Assembly (NCBI RefSeq): GCF_002915595.1
Contig: NZ_PQGG01000036.1
Span: forward strand, 1 to 64,000
Direction of reading: 5' to 3'
DNA length: 64,000 bases
Source: Zhongshania marina
Lineage (GTDB): Bacteria > Pseudomonadota > Gammaproteobacteria > Pseudomonadales > Spongiibacteraceae
The first letter of the stretch is position 1. The number at the start of each line of letters is the position of its first letter. Under the pieces are notes generated by a model, which saw nothing but the letters and a program-made list of their open reading frames with translations, made no database searches and was not told where the DNA came from. Positions 632 to 12,056 of the stretch are shown here, piece after piece. The position numbers and the translations under genes were made by a program.

Positions 632-659
632 TTGACGACGCAAAAATATACTGTATATT
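632..659 (+). promoter_or_regulatory. predicted intI promoter (-35/-10)
   Basis: TTGACG (632-637) and TATATT (654-659) are separated by 16 bp, a good sigma-70 promoter, placing transcription start near 666. The TTG at 632 could open a longer reading frame but is better explained as the -35 box. Confidence 0.6.
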
Positions 660-666
660 TGAACAG
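651..666. promoter_or_regulatory. LexA box overlapping the intI promoter
   Basis: CTGTATATTTGAACAG matches the CTG-N10-CAG LexA operator and covers the -10 element. SOS control of integron integrases is established for other integrons. Its presence here is seen directly; LexA binding is inferred. Confidence 0.85.
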
Positions 667-691
667 CATTCGAGACAAGGAGTGTTTTGAT

Positions 692-1654
692 ATGTCTAGC
701 CCATTTTTAGAATCTCTACGCCGTGAAATGCGTCTACGTGGCTACAGTATTAGAACCGAGAAAACTTATCTTCACTGGATTAGGCAGTACATATATTTCA
801 TTAATAAGCGGCATCCAAAAGATGCCGGCCAAGACGAAGTAAAATCATTCTTGTCTATGTTGGCCAATGACCGTCATGTGGCAGTAAATACCCAAAAGGT
901 TGCACTCAACTCTCTAGTCTTTATGTATCACAAAGCCCTTAACATGCCTTTGGGTGAGCTAGACTTTTCTCTTGCGACAAAACAACGCACCCTTCCAACC
1001 GTGCTATCGGCTTCCGAAGTCGCTCGTATAATCGATCAGCTAACTGGCCGAAACCAACTTATCATTATGCTGCTCTATGGCAGCGGGTTGAGAGTCAGTG
1101 AGTGTTTACGAATACGCGTTAAAGATGTCGACTTACAGCGCCGAGCCTTAACGATCCACGATGGCAAAGGGCGTAAAGATCGACAAACTCTGATAGGAGA
1201 GTCAGCGTTAAACAATCTTAAAGAAGCCATTGAACAGGGTATATCTCGCCAGCGTGAAGACAACTTGCATGGCATAGGTTGCTCAGTGCCTCCTGCCTTA
1301 TCCCGAAAGTATCCCAATGCCTACAAAAGCGACGCATGGGCGTTTATATTTCCATCATCTAGTCTCTGTAACCACCCGATGACAGGCACGCTTTGTCGAC
1401 ATCACCTCCATGAGACTGTTGTTCGGCGTTTTTTGAAGCCTGCCGTACAGCAAGCAGACGTTACGCGTAAGCGGGTAAACTGTCACACCTTTCGGCATTC
1501 TTTTGCGACCCACATGCTGGCGGCAGGCACTGACATTAGAACGGTTCAAGAGTTACTGGGCCACAACGACGTCAGCACAACGCAAATTTATACCCACGTA
1601 CTTGGTCGTCATTATGCAGGCACGAGTAGCCCCCTTGATGCACTCAGTCAGTAG
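692..1654 (+). CDS. intI: integron integrase (tyrosine recombinase)
   Basis: Integron integrases insert and excise gene cassettes by attI x attC recombination. The 320-aa product has the full tyrosine-recombinase set: R134, K159, H265 and R268 (HTFRHSF), H291 (ELLGH) and nucleophile Y300 (IYTHVL). An extra segment at about residues 205-245, containing W216 and a FIFPSS stretch followed by RHHLHE, is the insertion that separates IntI from XerC/XerD. The start at 692 is chosen because AAGGAG (677-682) lies 9 nt upstream; the longer frame from TTG 632 would begin inside the promoter and LexA box. It appears intact. Cassettes would be expected to the left, mostly outside this window. Confidence 0.92.
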   Translation: MSSPFLESLRREMRLRGYSIRTEKTYLHWIRQYIYFINKRHPKDAGQDEVKSFLSMLANDRHVAVNTQKVALNSLVFMYHKALNMPLGELDFSLATKQRTLPTVLSASEVARIIDQLTGRNQLIIMLLYGSGLRVSECLRIRVKDVDLQRRALTIHDGKGRKDRQTLIGESALNNLKEAIEQGISRQREDNLHGIGCSVPPALSRKYPNAYKSDAWAFIFPSSSLCNHPMTGTLCRHHLHETVVRRFLKPAVQQADVTRKRVNCHTFRHSFATHMLAAGTDIRTVQELLGHNDVSTTQIYTHVLGRHYAGTSSPLDALSQ

Positions 1655-1874: not shown

Positions 1875-3674
1875 TTACTTTGCTGCCAGATATTTGCGCC
1901 ACCCGCCAAAATGGCTAATGTCTTCAGCACCGGCCAAGCCGGATGCCTCACATATAAAGCCGCTCACCACACTGCCATCCTGCAAGCTGACTTTGCCGAT
2001 ACCCAAGGGCGCAGGAATGCCGGCAACAAAACTGCCAAACTCGCTAGCAGGCACTGACCACACCTCGACCTCTATCGCGCAGCCTTGGCCTTGCGATGCA
2101 ATGACCATACCCGGCCTAAACGGCGGGCCACCAGCCAAGGCGTAAAGTTGGTAATTCGGCGTCGATAGTGTTTTTGAAACTAAATAAGCGCCGCGTTCAG
2201 TTAATTGCCAATTTAAAGGCTGGCCCTGTAAATGCGCACCGCACACCGCAACAGCAATACGCTGCTGATTTTTAATCGGCGCGGTACTCAATGCTTGATA
2301 GTCAGACTGATCTTTACCTAGTGGCAATTTAAATAATTGCTGTAGGTAGTTCGCAACCGACAGCAAACGTCGATCAGTGAAGGCTTCACCAACCAGAGTG
2401 AGGCCAAAGGGGAATCCGCTGTCAGTGAATCCCGTCGGCACCGCCACCCCAGCCAAATCAAATAAGTTCATATAGTTGGTGTAGTAGCCCAAATTACTAT
2501 TCAAGGTAATTGGGTCCTGATTCACCTCGTCGATGGCATACGGCCTACCCGCAGTAGGTGTGAGCAAGCAATCAACACTTTCTAATACCGTTGTTGCTGC
2601 TTTGCGCAAAGCTTTTAGACGATACTGCGCCCTAAACGCCTCTACCGCAGAACCTCTTTCACCCGCCGAAATGATGGTGCGGGTGACATCTAGCAATGCC
2701 TCTGGACGTTTTTGAATAAGTGGCGAAGTTGCGATGTATCGCTCTGCCACCCACGGGCCTTCGTACAATAAACGTGCTGCCTCAATAAAGGGCGCAAAGT
2801 CGACCTCCACAAGCTCGACACCACTGGCGGCGATAGCCGCCAATGAGCGCTGATAACACTGGGCATAAGCCTCATGGCCAAAAAACGATAGCTGTTCTGC
2901 GGGTAATACGCCGATGCGCAACGGCCCCTGCCACTGACCATAGTGCCGCGCGCTATTAGCAAAGGGATTGCTGCGACTATAGGCATCGCTTGCGTCTTCA
3001 CCCTCGGCAATGGCCAAGATCGCGTTAGCGTCATCACACTGCAGGGCAAAGATCGTAATGCAATCCAATGATCGGCAAGCCGGTAGCATGCCGCTGGCAG
3101 ACAGTAGTCCGATGCTGGGTTTCACACCGACTAAATTATTAAAGCAGGCCGGTACGCGGCCAGAACCTGCGGTATCTGTGCCCAGTGAAAAGCTCGCCAT
3201 GCCCAATGCCACCGACACCGCCGAACCCGCACTGGAACCACCGCTAATCATGCTGGGGTCAAAACTGTTTTTACAGGCTCCCCACGGTGAGCGCGTACCC
3301 ACCAAGCCGGTCGCAAATTGATCGAGATTGGTTTTGCCAACTGGAATCGCGCCCGCATCAATTAAGCGCTGCACAACAAAGGCTGAACGCTCTGGCGTAT
3401 AAGCAAAAGCGTCGCAGGCCGCCGTTGTAGGTACGCCAGCCAAATCGATATTATCTTTTATCGCAAAGGGAATACCGTATAGGGGCAAGGCATCCGCTGA
3501 GCTAGTTTCCAAACGCTGTAAATAAGGCTCTAACTCCGCCGCCGTGAGCTGATGAATCCAAATATTATGGTCTCGATGCTGTTCACAACGCTCAGCAACC
3601 ATCGCCATCACTTCGCGCGGCGTCACCTTATTCTTCGCGTAAGCCCCACGTAATTCAGTCAATGAAAGATTCAT
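1875..3674 (-). CDS. atzF: allophanate hydrolase
   Basis: Hydrolyses allophanate to ammonia and CO2, the last step of the guanidine pathway encoded upstream. The 599-aa length equals the two-domain family. An amidase-signature domain occupies about residues 1-450, with catalytic Lys73 (AIKDNID), Ser148 (GGSSAGS) and nucleophile Ser171 (DTAGSGRVP). The C-terminal domain (about 470-599) is the AtzF-type domain that acts on the decarboxylated intermediate. ATG overlaps the stop of the carboxylase gene by 4 nt (ATGA) and is preceded by GGAGGA, so the two are translationally coupled. It is the last gene of the operon. Because carboxyguanidine deiminase genes lie in the same operon, its substrate most likely derives from guanidine rather than urea. 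Confidence 0.94.
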   Translation of the reverse strand: MNLSLTELRGAYAKNKVTPREVMAMVAERCEQHRDHNIWIHQLTAAELEPYLQRLETSSADALPLYGIPFAIKDNIDLAGVPTTAACDAFAYTPERSAFVVQRLIDAGAIPVGKTNLDQFATGLVGTRSPWGACKNSFDPSMISGGSSAGSAVSVALGMASFSLGTDTAGSGRVPACFNNLVGVKPSIGLLSASGMLPACRSLDCITIFALQCDDANAILAIAEGEDASDAYSRSNPFANSARHYGQWQGPLRIGVLPAEQLSFFGHEAYAQCYQRSLAAIAASGVELVEVDFAPFIEAARLLYEGPWVAERYIATSPLIQKRPEALLDVTRTIISAGERGSAVEAFRAQYRLKALRKAATTVLESVDCLLTPTAGRPYAIDEVNQDPITLNSNLGYYTNYMNLFDLAGVAVPTGFTDSGFPFGLTLVGEAFTDRRLLSVANYLQQLFKLPLGKDQSDYQALSTAPIKNQQRIAVAVCGAHLQGQPLNWQLTERGAYLVSKTLSTPNYQLYALAGGPPFRPGMVIASQGQGCAIEVEVWSVPASEFGSFVAGIPAPLGIGKVSLQDGSVVSGFICEASGLAGAEDISHFGGWRKYLAAK

Positions 3675-6600
3675 ACTAGTTCCTCCAAAATCAGTACCGA
3701 CTGGCCAGCACTTACTCGCGCACCCTCGCGCAATAATTGTTTTTTAACTCGTCCGGCCTGCGGTGCAAACACAGCAATTTCCATCTTCATTGATTCCAAC
3801 AGTAGTAGCGGCTGGCCAATCTCTACCACATCACCCTCCTTCACGAGCAATTGCCAAACACTGCCAGCCACCGAGCTATCCACGGGAATTTCACCCTCTT
3901 GCAAGCTCACCTCATCAGCGGCGTCATCAATCTCAGGGGCTTCATAATGGAATTGGCCATCGGCATGCCAACGCGCCAACTCTTCCGCAAAGGCCTGCTC
4001 GCGCTTTTCAGTGTGACTGGCAATTTCTGAAGCATTATCAGCCAGCATTTGTTGATAATCCGCCAGCGAAAATTCACCCTCTTCAATGCGCAGAGAGTAT
4101 TTACCCAAGGGAAAATCATTGCGGATTTGCAGTAATTCGTCCTGACTAACTTCGTAGAAACGAATCTGATCAAAGAAGCGCAGCAAATACGGCTCGGTAA
4201 ACTCCTTAGTGCGGCGGTAGCGGTTCCACATTTGCAGGGTTCTACCAATAAATTGATAGCCGCCCGGCCCCTCCATGCCATACACACAGAGATAGGAACC
4301 GCCAATACCCACCGAGTTTTCCGCCGTCCAGGTTCGCGCCGGATTGTATTTTGTGGTGACTAGGCGATGACGCGGATCTACCGGCGTAGCCACCGGCGCG
4401 CCCAAATACACATCCCCCAACCCCATTACCAAATAGGCGGCATCAAACACGATGTCTTTTACGGCCTCAATACTTTCCAAACCGTTTATACGACGAATGA
4501 ATTCCAAATTACTTGGACACCAGGGCGCGTTTTGACGCACCGACTGCTGGTATTTTGCAATGGCTTGGCGACAGGCTTCGTCGTCCCAACTCAGCGGTAA
4601 ATACACCGTGCGCGACGGTACATTGAGTTGTTCTAACTGGGTAGACAGATACGTCTCCGCCTCGGCTAATACCGCGAGTAAATCCGCCAAGGAAATAGTT
4701 TGAGAATCATAATGCAATTGCAATGAGCGAATGCCCGGTGTCATTTCCCGCACACCCGCCACCGCGTTTTGCTGCAAGTGCTGCATTAAGGCGTGGGCCC
4801 GAAAGCGCAGGCGAATATCCAATTCCTGTGGGCCATATTCAACCAATAAGAAATGATCGCCGGCAACGCGGTAAACCACCTCATCACCAACTTCATCTGC
4901 ACTCAAGCGCTGAACAATAGGTGATGGCAATTCACTTAGCGCTGTCATCGCCGGTGCATCCACTGTCAGATGTTGAATACTCGCTAGCTGCGCCTGTTCG
5001 GCACGAACTGCGTCGTCAATGGTCACCGCCACAAAGCGCAGCTTATCGCCGGCGCGCAATTGCCCCAGCTTCCACAGGTCTGCGCTAATCACGGTGGCGG
5101 GACACACAAAGCCGCCCAAAGATGGGCCATCAGGGCCAAGAATCACCGGCATATCACCGGTGAAATCCACCGTCCCAAAAGCGTAGGCATTGTCGTGAAT
5201 GTTGGATGGATGCATTCCGGCTTCGCCACCACTGCTTCGCGCCCAGGTCGGTTTGGGGCCGATTAAACGCACACCGGTGCGGCTGGAGTTGTAATGCACT
5301 TCCCAGCTGGCTGAGAAAAATGCGTCTATATCCGCGTCGGTAAAAAAGTCCGGCGCGCCATGTGGGCCGTAGATCACCCGCAAACACCATTCATGATTAA
5401 TTTCTGGCTTTAGTTCAGCGGGCAAATGTTGCGGCATCGCAACAGCGTCTTTTAATGCCAATACATCGCCAACCCGCAAAGCACGACCACTGTGACCACC
5501 AAATTGCCCCAGTGTGAAGGTCGAACGCGACCCTAAATATTCTGGGCATTGAACGCCACCCGCCACCGCCAAATACGCTCTAGCACCCGCAGAGATGCGA
5601 CCAAGATGCAAAGTCTGTCCCGCCTCAATATGAATGACCTGCCAAGGCGCTAGCGTTATACCGTCTTGCCCAGCCGTGCCTCCCACCAGTGTTGCTGGCA
5701 GCTCTGCACCGCCGATCACCACATCAGTCGCTTCGCTAAACTGCAGGCTAGGGCCTTGTAGCGTTATTTCCAAACCCGCCGCGTCATCGTCATTACCCAA
5801 CAGACGATTCGCCAAGCGGAAGGAGTAATTATCAAAGGGGCCAGAGGGCGGCACGCCAACATCCCAATAGCCGCTGCGTCCGGGATAATCTTGTATCGTG
5901 GTTTGCGTACCCGCCTGCAACACATCTATGCGGCGCGGCTCCCAAGTAAAATCATTTAGGTAGCGGGTAGTGATCAAGCCTTCTTTTAATAAAGAATCAC
6001 TGAGCAGTGCGCGCAAATAATCGCGATTACTTACTATGCCGTAAAGCTCCGTTTCATCCAGTGCTGTAGCGACACCCTTGAGCGCCGCCGCCCGCTCTGG
6101 GGCATGAAAAATCACCTTCGCCAACATGGGGTCAAAATACGGCGACACCTCAATGCCGCTGTCCAACCAATGATCTATACGCAAGCCCTCGGCCTGCGGA
6201 AATGACACCTTGCTGAGTAAACCTGCGCAGGGTTGAAACTGCCGATAGGGATCTTCGGCATACACCCTCACCTGCACCGCATGTCCCTTTGGCACTAGCT
6301 TTTTACGCAGCTCCGACAGCTCGGGTAAATCGCCGCTGGCAAGCATTAACATCCATGCAACTAGATCGACTCCCCACACTGCCTCAGTTACACCGTGCTC
6401 TACTTGCAGACGGGTATTCACTTCTAAAAAATAAAATTCGCGGCTGTCTTGGTCGTAAATAAATTCAACAGTGCCGGCATTGCGGTAATTCACCGCCGCT
6501 AGTAAATCCTCAGATTGGGTGTACAACAAGTGCCGTACTGAATCAGGTAGATTCGGTGCCGGGCACTCCTCCACCACCTTTTGATTTCGGCGTTGAGCTG

Positions 6601-7285
6601 AACAATCCCGTTCGCCGATTGCAACGACTTGACCGTAGCCATCGCCAAAGACCTGAACTTCAATATGCCGAGCGCGGGCGATAAATTTTTCTAAAAACAC
6701 ACCGTCATTTGAAAAATTATTGCCGCCCAATTTTTTAACTTTGTCGAAGCCGCTGCGTAGGTCTTCTTCGCTGTGACAGACCTGCATACCAATACCACCA
6801 CCGCCAGCGGTGCTCTTTAACATCACAGGGTAACCAATCACATTGGCATGACTTACCGCGCTGTCTAAATCACTTAACAGACCGGTGCCCGGCGGCAGCG
6901 GCACCCCAACAGATTCAGCAATTTCGCGGGCTTTATGTTTTAAACCAAAATCCAGCATGTGCTTCGCGGTAGGCCCAATAAAGGCAATACCGTCTGCTTC
7001 GCACTGCCGAACAAAATCAGCATTCTCGCTGAGAAAGCCGTAACCGGGATGGATAGCCTCTGCGCCACAGCGCTGGGCGATATCTAATATTTTTTCAATA
7101 TTTAAATACGTATCTGCAGCTCCGCCATCACCCAAGCTATAGGCTTCATCAGCGTTGCGCACATGCAAGCTGCGCGCGTCCGCTTCGGCGTAGACCGAGA
7201 CTGCAATAATATTAAATTGTTTTAGGGTGCGAATAATCCGCGTAGCGATGGCGCCACGGTTAGCAATTAATACTTTCTGGAACAT
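3671..7285 (-). CDS. guanidine carboxylase (urea carboxylase family)
   Basis: Biotin-dependent, ATP-driven carboxylase. Domains in order: biotin carboxylase with ATP-grasp (about 1-450, glycine loop GGGGIGM), KipA/KipI-like carboxyltransferase region (about 460-1050), and biotinyl domain with Lys1167 in ESMKMEIAV. At 1204 aa it matches full-length urea carboxylases. Sequence alone would be called urea carboxylase. The guanidine-I and guanidine-II riboswitches and DUF1989 pair in the operon identify the subtype that carboxylates guanidine, as established for such loci. I start at 7285 because MFQKVLIANRG is the family's usual N-terminus and a weak GGA precedes it; an in-frame ATG at 7291 is the alternative. 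The predicted guanidine-II riboswitch abuts the start. Confidence 0.88.
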   Translation of the reverse strand: MFQKVLIANRGAIATRIIRTLKQFNIIAVSVYAEADARSLHVRNADEAYSLGDGGAADTYLNIEKILDIAQRCGAEAIHPGYGFLSENADFVRQCEADGIAFIGPTAKHMLDFGLKHKAREIAESVGVPLPPGTGLLSDLDSAVSHANVIGYPVMLKSTAGGGGIGMQVCHSEEDLRSGFDKVKKLGGNNFSNDGVFLEKFIARARHIEVQVFGDGYGQVVAIGERDCSAQRRNQKVVEECPAPNLPDSVRHLLYTQSEDLLAAVNYRNAGTVEFIYDQDSREFYFLEVNTRLQVEHGVTEAVWGVDLVAWMLMLASGDLPELSELRKKLVPKGHAVQVRVYAEDPYRQFQPCAGLLSKVSFPQAEGLRIDHWLDSGIEVSPYFDPMLAKVIFHAPERAAALKGVATALDETELYGIVSNRDYLRALLSDSLLKEGLITTRYLNDFTWEPRRIDVLQAGTQTTIQDYPGRSGYWDVGVPPSGPFDNYSFRLANRLLGNDDDAAGLEITLQGPSLQFSEATDVVIGGAELPATLVGGTAGQDGITLAPWQVIHIEAGQTLHLGRISAGARAYLAVAGGVQCPEYLGSRSTFTLGQFGGHSGRALRVGDVLALKDAVAMPQHLPAELKPEINHEWCLRVIYGPHGAPDFFTDADIDAFFSASWEVHYNSSRTGVRLIGPKPTWARSSGGEAGMHPSNIHDNAYAFGTVDFTGDMPVILGPDGPSLGGFVCPATVISADLWKLGQLRAGDKLRFVAVTIDDAVRAEQAQLASIQHLTVDAPAMTALSELPSPIVQRLSADEVGDEVVYRVAGDHFLLVEYGPQELDIRLRFRAHALMQHLQQNAVAGVREMTPGIRSLQLHYDSQTISLADLLAVLAEAETYLSTQLEQLNVPSRTVYLPLSWDDEACRQAIAKYQQSVRQNAPWCPSNLEFIRRINGLESIEAVKDIVFDAAYLVMGLGDVYLGAPVATPVDPRHRLVTTKYNPARTWTAENSVGIGGSYLCVYGMEGPGGYQFIGRTLQMWNRYRRTKEFTEPYLLRFFDQIRFYEVSQDELLQIRNDFPLGKYSLRIEEGEFSLADYQQMLADNASEIASHTEKREQAFAEELARWHADGQFHYEAPEIDDAADEVSLQEGEIPVDSSVAGSVWQLLVKEGDVVEIGQPLLLLESMKMEIAVFAPQAGRVKKQLLREGARVSAGQSVLILEELV

Positions 7286-7291
7286 AGTCAT

Positions 7292-7340
7292 CCGGTAGCG
7301 GGCCGTCCCGCTATGTCATACGACAGTGGCCGTCCACTGA
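7292..7340 (-). promoter_or_regulatory. guanidine-II (mini-ykkC) riboswitch
   Basis: On the minus strand two hairpins follow each other: CAGTGG-ACGG-CCACTG (7339-7324), a 10-nt linker, then TAGCGGG-ACGG-CCCGCTA (7313-7296). Two short stems with identical ACGR tetraloops placed directly before a start codon is the hallmark of class II guanidine riboswitches. The second stem ends 4 nt before the ATG at 7291 and just before the weak Shine-Dalgarno GGA for the ATG at 7285, so translational control of the carboxylase is likely. It sits inside an operon already headed by a class I guanidine riboswitch. Confidence 0.85.
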
Positions 7341-7391: not shown

Positions 7392-8033
7392 TTAAGCATT
7401 CCAAACGAGGTATTCAATTGGCGTTGGGTTATAGGCATTGCAGGGATTGTTTAACTGCGGACAGTTAGAGATTAAAACGTAAACATCTACCAAGGCCTTT
7501 AATTCCACGTATTTTCCCGGCGCCGAAATACCGTCAGCAAAACTTAGGCCGCCTTCTTCGGTAACGGGTACGTTCATGAAAAAATTTATATTGTGGGTGA
7601 TATCCCGCTTACTTAGGCCGTATTCGGGCTTTTCGGCTATTGCTAACATCCAGCTATCACGACAGGCATGCATACAACGTTTTTCTAAGTCATAGCGAAC
7701 TGTATTGCTCTCGGTCGCGCAGGCACCGCCTAAGGTATCGTGGCGGCCACAGGTGTCGGCGACAATTTCTAACATGGCGCGATTCTTATTGCTGCGCAGC
7801 ACTGAGCCGGCAGTTAAGTACACATTGTGCTGTTCACGAATGGTATCGGTAGCGCTGTAGCGCTCGCTCGGATCATCAACACAGTAGAACAAAGTATCGG
7901 CGGCTTGATTACCTTCTAAATCAAGAATTCGACATATTTGCCCTGCGCTGACTTTACCTAGGTAATAGTCACCCGCCCACACCACTTCGCGAAACACCGC
8001 CGTCTCTAATGACAAATTACTTTCTTTAATCAT
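7392..8033 (-). CDS. carboxyguanidine deiminase subunit (DUF1989, urea carboxylase-associated)
   Basis: One of two tandem, paralogous DUF1989 proteins (213 aa), historically named urea carboxylase-associated protein. In characterised guanidine loci the pair forms CgdAB, which converts carboxyguanidine to allophanate plus ammonia. Visible family features are a [13 protein letters not shown] segment near residues 38-50 and a [11 protein letters not shown] segment near 94-104 that probably contributes metal or active-site ligands. The second gene (8048-8758) ends 14 nt upstream, and the carboxylase follows after a 100-nt leader carrying the class II riboswitch. I do not assign cgdA or cgdB, because the order cannot be decided from sequence inspection. 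Confidence 0.88.
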
Positions 8034-8047
8034 AAAGCAGCCCTCCC

Positions 8048-8758
8048 TCAGCAGCCTAAGTGGTACAAGGCATTATTTTTGAAACCGCGACGATTCTCAT
8101 CGCAGTGATTTAGACACACATCGTCTTCGCTCATCGGCGCCGCCACACTAAGCTCAACACCAATGCGATGGCGCGGGTAGTCTTCGGCCATTCGCAGGGG
8201 ATGAGGGCAGGCATGAATTAACACCAAGGCATCCATTTCTAAACGCAAGCTAAGACTATTCCCCGCCCTACTATTGTTATTGGCCAAAGTCATATTACCG
8301 TCAGCGTCAGTCACTACTTTGCTAAACCAATTAAGATTGGCCGCCATGTCTGCAGCACCTAGGCCGTACTTTGCCAATTCCGTTAAAAAGGCATCGTAAC
8401 CATTTTGATGCCAATCATTGCGGTCATTTTGATAATCCCGTGCACCCCAGCGATCTGCAACTTGGCTAGCATGAATATTGCCGCACACCGTGTCGTGCCA
8501 ACCCACATCATCAGCAGTGACCGAGGCAAAAATACGCCCCATATCGGAATATAGGCAGTGGCCCTTTGTTAGCTTAAACGTGTGCTGGCACTTGAGGGTG
8601 TCCGGCGCGTTATAGCGCTCTAAAAGATTGCGCGGGTTATAGAACAACATACCAGCGTTACCGTTACCGTCTACATCACGCAGCGTAATTTGCGTACCAC
8701 GCCGGAGCTCAATGGACCAATGCCCACCTGCTGGAATTTCAGTTTGATAATTTTCCAT
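8048..8758 (-). CDS. carboxyguanidine deiminase subunit (DUF1989, larger paralogue)
   Basis: Larger member (236 aa) of the DUF1989 pair. It shares with its neighbour the pattern of a [14 protein letters not shown] segment near residue 28 and a GWHDTVCGN segment near 87-95. With the neighbouring subunit it is predicted to deiminate carboxyguanidine to allophanate, providing the link between the carboxylase and allophanate hydrolase. It lies two nucleotides downstream of the ABC ATPase gene, so import and breakdown genes are co-transcribed. The family also contains unrelated aminomethyl-transferase-like annotations; the operon context favours the deiminase role. Confidence 0.88.
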
Positions 8759-8760
8759 TC

Positions 8761-9537
8761 TTAAACCTGCTCTGCTTGATTTTTAGTCGCTAGACTTTCA
8801 TCAATTTCATCTAATATTTCCTGCTCGCACACCCCCACCGGCAAGTCATAGGTAATGCTTGCGCCGTAGGCATTTGGCGCTTGCGCGTCCACCCGTCGCT
8901 TATCAAAAACCCACAAGCGGGTGCCCAAGTGGAAGCCTTCTTTTAGATCGTGGGTAACCATAAAAACGGTGAGCTTATGTTTACGCCACAAATCCAAAAC
9001 CAACTCGTGCATATCGGCCCGAATACCTGGATCTAATGCACCGAATGGTTCATCTAATAATAAAATTCTAGGCTTTAAGATTAATGCCTGAGCAATAGCC
9101 AGACGCTGACGCATGCCGCCTGAAAGCTCATCGGGATAGCGGTTTTTCATATGGGCAAGACCAACAACATCTAAAAGTGCCGCCGCCTCTTCGCGGGCTG
9201 CCTTTTTCGCCGCGCCCCACAAAAATCCGAGTTTTGTTTTTTCAAATTCGCGGGCAATCACCACGTTTTCTAAAACATTTAAATGGGGAAACACCGAATA
9301 CTGCTGAAACACGACACCGCGTTCCGCATCCGGCTCCGAGGGAATTGGTTTGCCGTCTAGCAATATGCTGCCCTGCGACGCCGAGTCGGTACCTAAGAGC
9401 ATTTTTAGAAATGTACTTTTACCGCAGCCAGAAGCCCCCACCAAGGTGATAAATTCACCCTCTTTTACGGTGGCAGAAATATTTTCTAAAATGACATTAT
9501 CGCCAAAGCGCTTCCAAACATTGTTTATTTCAATCAT
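8761..9537 (-). CDS. ABC transporter ATP-binding protein (guanidine importer)
   Basis: Cytoplasmic ATPase subunit of a NitT/TauT-type importer, 258 aa. Walker A GASGCGKST (about residues 35-43), signature LSGGMRQR (about 138-145), Walker B ILLLDEPFGALD (about 158-169) and the switch His in VTHD are all present. It overlaps the permease gene by 4 nt and is followed directly by the DUF1989 genes. NitT/TauT-type importers of this subfamily commonly accompany urea/guanidine carboxylase operons under ykkC control. The substrate is inferred from the riboswitch and from the enzymes encoded downstream. Confidence 0.93.
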   Translation of the reverse strand: MIEINNVWKRFGDNVILENISATVKEGEFITLVGASGCGKSTFLKMLLGTDSASQGSILLDGKPIPSEPDAERGVVFQQYSVFPHLNVLENVVIAREFEKTKLGFLWGAAKKAAREEAAALLDVVGLAHMKNRYPDELSGGMRQRLAIAQALILKPRILLLDEPFGALDPGIRADMHELVLDLWRKHKLTVFMVTHDLKEGFHLGTRLWVFDKRRVDAQAPNAYGASITYDLPVGVCEQEILDEIDESLATKNQAEQV

Positions 9538-10358
9538 GACTTACCCTCCTGCTGCGCATGCCAAGGGAAGGCAAAGCGACTCAGCTGAGCAAGCAAGTAA
9601 TCGATAATAAAGGCCAGCAAGGTAATCCATGCCACATAGGGAAGAATTACATCCATAGAAAGATAGCGACGGACCAAAAATACGCGGTAGCCCAAACCAT
9701 CCGTTGAAGCAATCGCCTCTGCAGCTATTAAAAACAGCCACGCGGAACCTAAGGACAGCCGCACTGCGTCTATCAGTCGCGGCAGCAATTGGGGAATAAG
9801 CACACGCAAAATAATTTGGCCGCTATTCGCCCCTAAGGTTTGGGCCTTCACTAATTGCTCGCGGGGAATTTCTAAAGTGCGTTTTTGAATATCTCTGGCG
9901 ATAAAGGGAGTAACACCAATCGCAATCAATGCCACTTTGGATACTTCACCCAGTCCGAACACAATAAACAATACCGGCAGCAAGGCCATCGGCGGCACTA
10001 GTGACACCACCGTAAGCAGAGGTGCAAAACTCGCATTTAAAACCGGTAGTGCGCCAGTCATGAGCCCGAATAGCATTCCCAATGAAGCCGCAATGACCAT
10101 TCCCAGCCCCAAACGTCGCAGGCTGCTTAGGGTGTCTTGCCAGAACAAATAGTCTCCGCTGCGCTTGCTCGGTTCAAAAGCCAGACGCTGAATGGCATCA
10201 CCCATCTGCGTAAAGCTCGGCAGTAATTTATCCTGTGGATTTTCCGCAAGCCTTGCGTCGGATGCAGAAATATAAATCAGAATAATAACTGCGAATGGCA
10301 ATAGCGCCAGACCAATTCGCCATATGCGCGCGGGTGTAAAATTGATAAGTCGTTTCAT
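9534..10358 (-). CDS. ABC transporter permease (guanidine importer)
   Basis: Inner-membrane subunit, 274 aa, with about six hydrophobic segments: the first at about residues 13-30, followed after a polar periplasmic stretch by a core beginning near 85. The cytoplasmic EAA-like loop is visible near residues 170-190 (AQTLGANSGQ), where the ATPase docks. It belongs to the SsuC/TauC branch of the BPD transport superfamily. The stop overlaps the ATPase start by 4 nt. A gap of about 110 nt separates it from the binding-protein gene. That gap holds a modest ACGCTA/TAGCGT hairpin that could dampen read-through, as is usual after abundant binding proteins. Confidence 0.92.
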   Translation of the reverse strand: MKRLINFTPARIWRIGLALLPFAVIILIYISASDARLAENPQDKLLPSFTQMGDAIQRLAFEPSKRSGDYLFWQDTLSSLRRLGLGMVIAASLGMLFGLMTGALPVLNASFAPLLTVVSLVPPMALLPVLFIVFGLGEVSKVALIAIGVTPFIARDIQKRTLEIPREQLVKAQTLGANSGQIILRVLIPQLLPRLIDAVRLSLGSAWLFLIAAEAIASTDGLGYRVFLVRRYLSMDVILPYVAWITLLAFIIDYLLAQLSRFAFPWHAQQEGKS

Positions 10359-10469: not shown

Positions 10470-11513
10470 TTACAATTTTCCGTCTGCGGCCATTTGCATA
10501 TAACTAGGGTCAAAACGGAATTTAATATTGCTGCTGTTACCAAATACGCCGGCGGGTGTTTCTATGCCGATAAAACCGGCATCAGGCGCACCTTCACCGA
10601 GTAAGCCGTGCTCGAAAGAGAATTCAGCCACATTTTTCATCGTCGTTTTCAACGCCGCGCTCTTGGTAAATTCCACCGCGCTCTCAGCACTGTAAAACAT
10701 TTTGGTACTTGCCAATTGCGCCTCATAACCCGCGAGGTCGGTGCCCGAGGCGCTGCCCATTGCAGTACGCGCCGCAATACCGGCCGGCCCAGCATCACTC
10801 ATAGTCGCCATAATTTCATACCATGCGCCAGTAAGCGCTTTACCCAAATTAGGGTTGGCTTTCAGCACATCGGTATTGATAACAAGAAGGTCAATAATCT
10901 CACCGGGGATTTGTGAAGAGTCGAACACCTTATTTGCACCAGGCATGGTCAATATTTCGCTGAGCAATGGGTTCCATGTTGCAACTGAGGTTACCCCTGC
11001 AGTTGGGAATACCGCGACCATGTCGGCGTCAGAGGTATTTACCACGGTCACATCAGACTCGCTCATGCCCACACTTTCTAAACCACGTGCAAGCAAATAG
11101 TGAGACACACTCAGCTCAACCAAATTAACTTTCTGGCCTTTTATATTTTGGAGCTTGTCGTAACCCTTCAGCACGACACCGTCATTGCCGTTAGAGAAAT
11201 CGCCAACAATCAACGCCGTACTATCAACACCGCCGGCAGCGGGAATAGTCAGCGCATCCATATTGGTCATGGCGCAGGCGGCAAACTCGCCAGTGGTGTA
11301 TTGGTTGATGGATTCGATGTAGTCGTTGATTTGTACAACCTCAATGTCGAGGTCATATTTTTTAGCCCACTTATCGACAATTTTTTGCTCGGCGCCGTAG
11401 CCCCAGGGCATCCAACCCACGTAGATAGACCAGCAGATTTTGAAACTGTCAGTAGCAGCAGTAGAGAATGACGAGAACGTCAGGGTGAGAAGTAAAGCGG
11501 CGAATCGCTTCAT
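10470..11513 (-). CDS. periplasmic substrate-binding protein (guanidine ABC importer)
   Basis: 347-aa periplasmic solute-binding protein, first gene of the guanidine operon. The signal peptide is MKRFAALLLTLTFSSFSTA with cleavage near residue 19, and the mature protein begins with a NitT/TauT-like FKICWSIYVGWMPWGY segment. I start at 11513: GGAGG (11521-11525) lies 7 nt upstream and the resulting signal peptide is normal. A second ATG at 11546 also has a good AGGAG (11553-11557) immediately after the riboswitch and would add 11 residues before the signal peptide; it may instead be a short translated leader or the ligand-controlled start. Ligand is inferred to be guanidine from the riboswitch and the enzymes downstream. 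Confidence 0.9.
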   Translation of the reverse strand: MKRFAALLLTLTFSSFSTAATDSFKICWSIYVGWMPWGYGAEQKIVDKWAKKYDLDIEVVQINDYIESINQYTTGEFAACAMTNMDALTIPAAGGVDSTALIVGDFSNGNDGVVLKGYDKLQNIKGQKVNLVELSVSHYLLARGLESVGMSESDVTVVNTSDADMVAVFPTAGVTSVATWNPLLSEILTMPGANKVFDSSQIPGEIIDLLVINTDVLKANPNLGKALTGAWYEIMATMSDAGPAGIAARTAMGSASGTDLAGYEAQLASTKMFYSAESAVEFTKSAALKTTMKNVAEFSFEHGLLGEGAPDAGFIGIETPAGVFGNSSNIKFRFDPSYMQMAADGKL

Positions 11514-11571
11514 GGGTAAACCTCCAGCGGTTTTACACGGGTTCATAGAGCACTCCTGGCGAATATCGCCG

Positions 11572-11697
11572 ATCGTCTCCCGGGCTTTTGTCCCGCCGTG
11601 TAACCTTGTGATTTAGCCTATTTGCTAAATGCGCCGAAGGTCGAAAGCTCTCGGACCAGTCATCTCAAATTACCTCTGAGATCGGAACCCTAGCTTT
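11572..11697 (-). promoter_or_regulatory. guanidine-I (ykkC) riboswitch
   Basis: On the minus strand the conserved ykkC blocks occur in order: CTAGGGTTCCGATCT (near 11692), ACTGGTCCGAGAGC (near 11660), then ACACGGCGGGACAAAAGCCC (near 11600) followed by GGGAGA. These are the hallmark sequences of class I guanidine riboswitches. A GGCGA-TAT-TCGCC hairpin (about 11560-11572) lies between the aptamer and the AGGAG of the 11546 start and may be part of the expression platform. There is no T-run, which suggests control of translation rather than termination. Confidence 0.95.
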
Positions 11698-12056
11698 CCA
11701 TTTTCAAATTGTAGTCGTCCAATGTCACCAAGAGTGCGGACATTAGCACTAATACAGGTTTCATGCCAAGCCCGCAGAACACCTATCGCATGGGCTTTTA
11801 AGTAAATCCCTCTTCGCTTGCCTATATTACTGACCTGCAATATTGCACCAACAAAAAACACAGAGCGCACCATAATAAGGCAAAACATTACCTCCTGCTT
11901 CCCATTAAACCCATGTATTCCTCCATCAAAATTGGCCAAATACGCAATTAAAACGGAACTTGTACACAAAAATTAAAAGTTTAATTTTACAACCTAATCA
12001 TGTTAGATTAAGTTTATAACGATGATAATTAGCCTAACAAAAACACGGAGTTCAAT
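11698..12056. other. intergenic region with divergent promoters
   Basis: The region lies between the guanidine operon leader (minus) and the small exported protein gene (plus). A minus-strand TACAAT shortly before the riboswitch could be its -10. Near the plus gene is an AT-rich palindrome AAAATTAAA-AG-TTTAATTTT (11969-11988), a possible operator. A 99-codon open frame on the minus strand overlaps the riboswitch and looks fortuitous. Confidence 0.4.

Follow-up and report, generated by a model that had tools for sequence, protein, structure and literature searches.

The use of two guanidine riboswitches in one guanidine operon is already published and is common in relatives of the bacterium considered here. 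In Vreelandella boliviensis, in-line probing shows guanidine binding by both switches, with KD values for guanidine of 44 µM for guanidine-I and 93 µM for guanidine-II, and the available part of that report calls the joint use of the two a subject for further study (PMC12508155). Guanidinium is described as drawing both loops of guanidine-II together, exposing the ribosome-binding site (PMC9094411 and PMC12508155, as far as their available parts go), and it has been proposed in print that the linker between its stems P1 and P2 carries an anti-Shine-Dalgarno stretch. For guanidine-I, the usual expression platform in print is an intrinsic terminator, a statement that concerns the platform and not the aptamer. 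In its available sections, a review of tandem riboswitches saw no tandems for the four guanidine classes, which refers to adjacent switches (PMC9481103).

The window, that is, the whole stretch of DNA analysed here, comprises 64,000 nt of Zhongshania marina (GCF_002915595.1, contig NZ_PQGG01000036.1, positions 1-64,000). It contains a seven-gene operon on the minus strand with two guanidine riboswitches, guanidine-I at the 5′ end and guanidine-II before the carboxylase gene. By NCBIfam, the genes are transcribed in the order substrate-binding protein, permease, ATP-binding protein, UAAP1, UAAP2, carboxylase and allophanate hydrolase, and the features are as follows.

11575..11704, minus strand: guanidine-I (ykkC) riboswitch aptamer heading the operon (RF00442, 85.8 bits, cut-off 63)
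10470..11513, minus strand: ABC transporter substrate-binding protein (TIGR03427, 553.7 bits), with an in-frame ATG further upstream at 11546
9534..10358, minus strand: ABC transporter permease, TauC/SsuC-like (ncbifam matches under cut-off)
8761..9537, minus strand: ABC transporter ATP-binding protein (ncbifam matches under cut-off)
8048..8758, minus strand: UAAP1, carboxyguanidine deaminase subunit (TIGR03425, 308.9 bits)
7392..8033, minus strand: UAAP2, carboxyguanidine deaminase subunit (TIGR03424, 322.6 bits; function from the literature)
7299..7339, minus strand: guanidine-II (mini-ykkC) riboswitch aptamer (RF01068, 27.5 bits, plus covariation in 53 leaders)
7339-7324, minus strand: P1, CAGTGG-ACGG-CCACTG, loop ACGG at 7333-7330
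7323-7313, minus strand: linker between P1 and P2, 11 bases
7312-7297, minus strand: P2, AGCGGG-ACGG-CCCGCT, loop ACGG at 7306-7303
7283..7295, minus strand: probable ribosome-binding stretch (GGA, 7293-7291) and carboxylase start codon (ATG, 7285-7283)
3671..7285, minus strand: carboxylase, guanidine-type, annotated as urea carboxylase (TIGR02712, 1806.7 bits, cut-off 1303.85)
1875..3674, minus strand: allophanate hydrolase (TIGR02713, 783.3 bits), its start overlapping the carboxylase stop

Overlaps of 4 bases join the permease and ATP-binding genes as well as the carboxylase and allophanate hydrolase genes (3674-3671), and UAAP1 starts 2 bases past the end of the ATP-binding gene. The substrate-binding protein gene is followed by a gap of 111 bases, and 100 bases separate UAAP2 from the listed carboxylase start; these are the widest gaps of the operon, and the second holds guanidine-II. 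Guanidine and urea carboxylases are distinguished by an active-site residue; here, the adjoining UAAP genes and both riboswitches point to guanidine as the probable substrate. An integron integrase gene (632-1654, plus strand; TIGR02249, 381.4 bits, cut-off 265) lies just past the end of the operon on the opposite strand.

The original prediction had placed a ykkC RNA in the operon leader at 11572-11697, and RF00442 recovered it at 11704-11575 with 85.8 bits against the cut-off of 63, as the single guanidine-I of the genome. It had also proposed a mini-ykkC RNA before the carboxylase, and this was confirmed by two ACGG hairpins, the best RF01068 match of the genome and strong covariation (see below), so that the layout of two unrelated guanidine sensors in one operon holds. 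Both hairpins have an ACGG loop with GG/CC closure, in agreement with the family feature of two ACGR-loop hairpins closed by GG/CC, and the linker is short (11 bases, versus 14 positions in the Rfam model). RNA folding of 7395-7260 yielded both hairpins with a z of -2.45, and the element adjoins a guanidine-metabolism gene, the TIGR02712 carboxylase beside UAAP1/UAAP2 and allophanate hydrolase. Between UAAP2 and guanidine-II lies a further hairpin of 8 pairs (7384-7357, minus strand), in which one pair changes from G-U to G-C within Zhongshania.

Significant covariance-model hits had been anticipated at both places; this was true of guanidine-I, while the RF01068 match at 7339-7299 (27.5 bits, E = 0.015 over 5.7 kb) fell short of the curated cut-off of 32 bits, because of which a default Rfam scan of the window reports no guanidine-II. 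That cut-off is a search threshold and not a structural feature, and scores under 32 bits were also obtained for 20 of the 58 carboxylase-adjacent guanidine-II matches in the order survey described below. The whole-genome search with RF01068 returned three matches, of which 7339-7299 was the best (E = 0.0026) and the second (15.6 bits, E = 1.9) trailed by about 12 bits. Elsewhere in some genomes of the same genus there is an additional guanidine-II with a higher score (32-43 bits; G212:C2:322622, G291:C2:95430 and G023:C3:320494), which the whole-genome RF01068 search did not find in Z. marina.

The distribution of the two switches was determined in relatives. Of 16 loci recovered by a protein-based search, 8 have the paired motif ahead of the carboxylase gene (four Zhongshania, Marinimicrobium, two Haliea and Catenovulum). 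The remaining 8 (L013-L020) lack it; these are less closely related, at 41-56% identity, and belong to other phyla or are partial. In an Rfam scan of the Marinimicrobium, Haliea and Catenovulum loci (L008-L011), guanidine-I scored 75-97 bits and guanidine-II 28-37 bits, each being found in all four. Within the order, 293 genomes were drawn evenly, and 84 of them yielded 99 carboxylase matches, which we split at 58% identity, a value chosen after viewing the table, where a gap lies between 58% and 56%. Among the 78 matches with at least 58% identity, guanidine-I was found upstream in 69, guanidine-II 5-39 bases before the carboxylase in 58, and both in the layout of the window in 54. In 5 more (L079-L083), which also have guanidine-I, guanidine-II lies 1.4-2.6 kb upstream of the carboxylase, between a transporter gene and UAAP1 (with a further long open frame intervening in L082), and the 5 matches with neither switch are all short or partial. 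Below 58% identity, guanidine-I was found in 2 of 21 matches and guanidine-II in none of the 21. The description of the layout as unusual therefore did not stand, given its presence in 54 of 78 matches and in print (in the parts available of PMC12186494 and PMC12508155).

A second draw, of 274 genomes from the class, added 21 carboxylase matches: 7 with both switches, 4 with guanidine-II only, 4 with neither, 3 where guanidine-I lies at a distance of about 4.2-4.4 kb and the model detects no guanidine-II, 2 where that distance is 1.5-1.6 kb and guanidine-II is absent, and 1 of unusual arrangement. In the last (L103, G410:C3), about 7 kb contain guanidine-I twice and guanidine-II once, and the carboxylase match starts only at query residue 454. 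Of the three with distant guanidine-I, G529 and G382 truly lack guanidine-II, and G348 shows a degenerate pair by eye. The 58% split is not absolute, since G482, a 56% carboxylase match with no model-found switch, has by eye two guanidine-II-type hairpins, one with an A-U loop closure. In the last 260 bases of both L096 (G348) and L104 (G482) there are relatives of guanidine-II with A-U loop closure (AACGAT), and one of the two additionally shows an ACGC loop as well as a palindromic insert ahead of the start codon; from their sequences, they appear to be decaying or variant switches. In another locus (L085, G090:C31:15127-15787), the P1-P2 linker is interrupted at about 395-600 by an inserted palindrome, very stable and about 170 bases long, which as a query had 38 matches in the G090 genome, itself included, and resembles a dispersed REP-type element that landed inside the riboswitch.

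We examined the stems of the carboxylase-adjacent guanidine-II matches for covariation, using 53 distinct leaders out of 58. The covariation score was 0.509 compared with 0.134 in shuffles, none of 500 shuffles reached 0.509, and slid partners gave at most 0.174. Paired cells amounted to 92.8% versus 72.5% in shuffles (95.6% in P1 and 89.9% in P2), and 10 of the 12 stem pairs showed two-sided changes. These pair counts lean towards structure because the leaders were gathered with the same covariance model, and the loops of all 58 leaders are ACGA or ACGG under a search pattern that imposes this; the stems of the protein-search loci L005-L012, however, agree independently of that model. The window and four Zhongshania loci do not differ in P1, in either loop or in the linker, and the outer P2 pair passes from G-C through G-U to A-U. 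These results indicated that the stems are paired beyond chance, as the original prediction would have it for related leaders. One could read the 27.5 bits under a cut-off of 32 as the mark of a chance pair of hairpins or a decayed remnant without function, but the conservation within Zhongshania and a covariation far exceeding both controls make this reading very improbable indeed. Judged from its sequence, 7339-7299 is a real guanidine-II riboswitch and a further case of the known and common two-switch operon.

The position of the aptamer bears on how it might act. The codon at 7291 is ATT in two of the related loci (L005 and L012), on which ground the carboxylase probably starts at ATG 7285 rather than at 7291, and the ribosome-binding GGA (7293-7291) begins 3 bases past the end of P2 (7297). 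By analogy with studied family members, in which two guanidinium ions bind cooperatively as the loops kiss, the ligand would bring the ACGG loops into a kissing interaction and thereby most likely free the ribosome-binding stretch and switch carboxylase translation on, and translation of allophanate hydrolase would follow by coupling to that of the carboxylase. The internal switch had been assigned to the carboxylase alone; the carboxylase is retained as its target, but not as the sole one, since the hydrolase start overlaps the carboxylase stop and the control probably extends to the hydrolase. Our best explanation, which we hold with high confidence, is an operon for guanidine uptake and degradation with guanidine-I in its 5′ leader and a translation-activating guanidine-II before the carboxylase. 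The RNA, its position and its conservation were observed here, while ligand binding and direction of control would be those of the family members from which they are transferred. As for the OFF state, pairing of the linker with the ribosome-binding site was no better than that of shuffled linkers (mean z -0.03; 2 of 56 leaders past the 5% level). Pairing of linker GACAUAG with CUAUGUU over the start codon, noticed by eye in the window, was rejected, because relatives do not conserve it and it would form at the expense of the outer P2 pairs.

Both switches could act in one operon and yet never be on one mRNA, if guanidine-II had a promoter of its own ahead of the carboxylase and were transcribed separately. 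The distance from the deaminase stop to P1, measured in 56 of the 58 leaders, is 130-284 bases in 11 of the 56, which could hold a promoter, but at most 71 bases in 45 of the 56 (median 26). In the window it is 52 bases with no promoter-like site among those listed, although a promoter inside the upstream gene is possible; the promoter scan carries little weight, because it gave 7 sites over the whole region versus 7.5 expected. We consider a separate transcript improbable, as the short gaps in most leaders leave little room for a separate promoter, and the internal guanidine-II is probably read on the operon transcript.

To see where the second switch occurs, we took the 69 carboxylase matches of at least 58% identity that have guanidine-I, uncorrected for kinship. 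Guanidine-I lies more than 2 kb upstream in 61 of these (median 4.3 kb), and guanidine-II is present in all 61 (59 by model, and G232 and G090 by eye). In the remaining 8, guanidine-I directly heads the enzyme genes at 1.4-1.7 kb, and none has guanidine-II. Two to three exceptions to this pattern occur elsewhere in the class. The distance pattern of internal guanidine-II presence is what this work adds; neither the distance rule nor the missing terminators described below was found stated in the literature covered, which includes the primary 2017-2021 guanidine riboswitch and assimilation papers in part.

The window has no terminator-like site between the guanidine-I aptamer and the first gene, and a scan for perfect stems found terminators in 0 of 69 guanidine-I leaders. 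Since such a scan misses bulged terminators, the 100 bases after guanidine-I were rescanned by folding, which gave 8 of 69 leaders versus 1 of 69 shuffled: 4 of the 61 with guanidine-I more than 2 kb upstream (one inside coding sequence, two from one genus) versus 4 of the 8 at 1.4-1.7 kb (three from one genus). Among 56 distinct leaders of the more distant group, 32 have a CTCC-like stretch 19-33 bases past the aptamer (14.3 expected), with near-fixed spacing from the aptamer tail GGGAG in long-type leaders (among L105-L173); the window has GCTCT at this position, which is no match. Shine-Dalgarno pairing had a mean probability of 0.56 in 54 distinct guanidine-I leaders, a value without a shuffle control and hence not evidence. 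Few terminators (4 of 61) together with CTCC at a near-fixed distance suggest translational control for long-type guanidine-I leaders.

Control of the whole operon by guanidine-I, as originally predicted, stays a supposition. Most such leaders show no intrinsic terminator, and for this reason guanidine-I here may chiefly regulate how the first gene is translated. If it is so limited, the enzyme block would need a switch of its own. This leads to a tentative proposal, to which we give rather less than even weight: in these gammaproteobacterial operons, guanidine-I would have lost its terminator, become translational on the first gene and been unable to govern enzyme genes 4 kb downstream, so that guanidine-II would be a required second translational switch and not an extra layer; where guanidine-I directly precedes the enzyme genes, no internal switch would be kept, and the terminator would be kept there in one genus. 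The proposal offers a testable reason for the second sensor, namely that a translational guanidine-I, if that is what this lineage has, would leave each operon block in need of a switch of its own. It also bears on the question, raised in the available part of PMC12508155, of why two guanidine sensors of different specificity share one operon. Beyond this, a sub-threshold riboswitch has been confirmed, and the two-sensor layout has turned out to be standard in at least one order and not peculiar to a single species.

Compared with known systems, as described in the parts available of the reports cited, the locus is like that of V. boliviensis, where guanidine-I precedes the operon and guanidine-II occupies the interval from cgdB, a deaminase gene, to gca, which encodes the carboxylase (PMC12508155). 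The authors of that report presume an intrinsic terminator for guanidine-I, whereas none was seen in the window. The internal switch of V. boliviensis binds methylguanidine as well as guanidine, and guanidine-I there rejects methylguanidine (PMC12508155), which raises the alternative that the ligand of the internal switch is a related compound such as methylguanidine, in which case the switch would not duplicate the guanidine signal. However, mgdH and mgdL, which make methylguanidine useful, sit in V. boliviensis between gca and the hydrolase gene atzF (PMC12508155), unlike in the window, where they are missing from that place because the carboxylase and hydrolase genes overlap by 4 bases, and we regard such a role as unlikely here. 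The operon also resembles those of Raoultella terrigena, Erwinia rhapontici and Klebsiella michiganensis, in which guanidine-I goes with importer and deaminase genes and guanidine-II, immediately downstream, with carboxylase and hydrolase, as in the window; these three, unlike Z. marina, are Enterobacteria (PMC12186494). With tandem riboswitches the operon shares more than one ligand sensor per transcript, but tandems are adjacent in one leader (PMC9481103), whereas the two switches of the window are separated by about 4.2 kb and each precedes a different gene.
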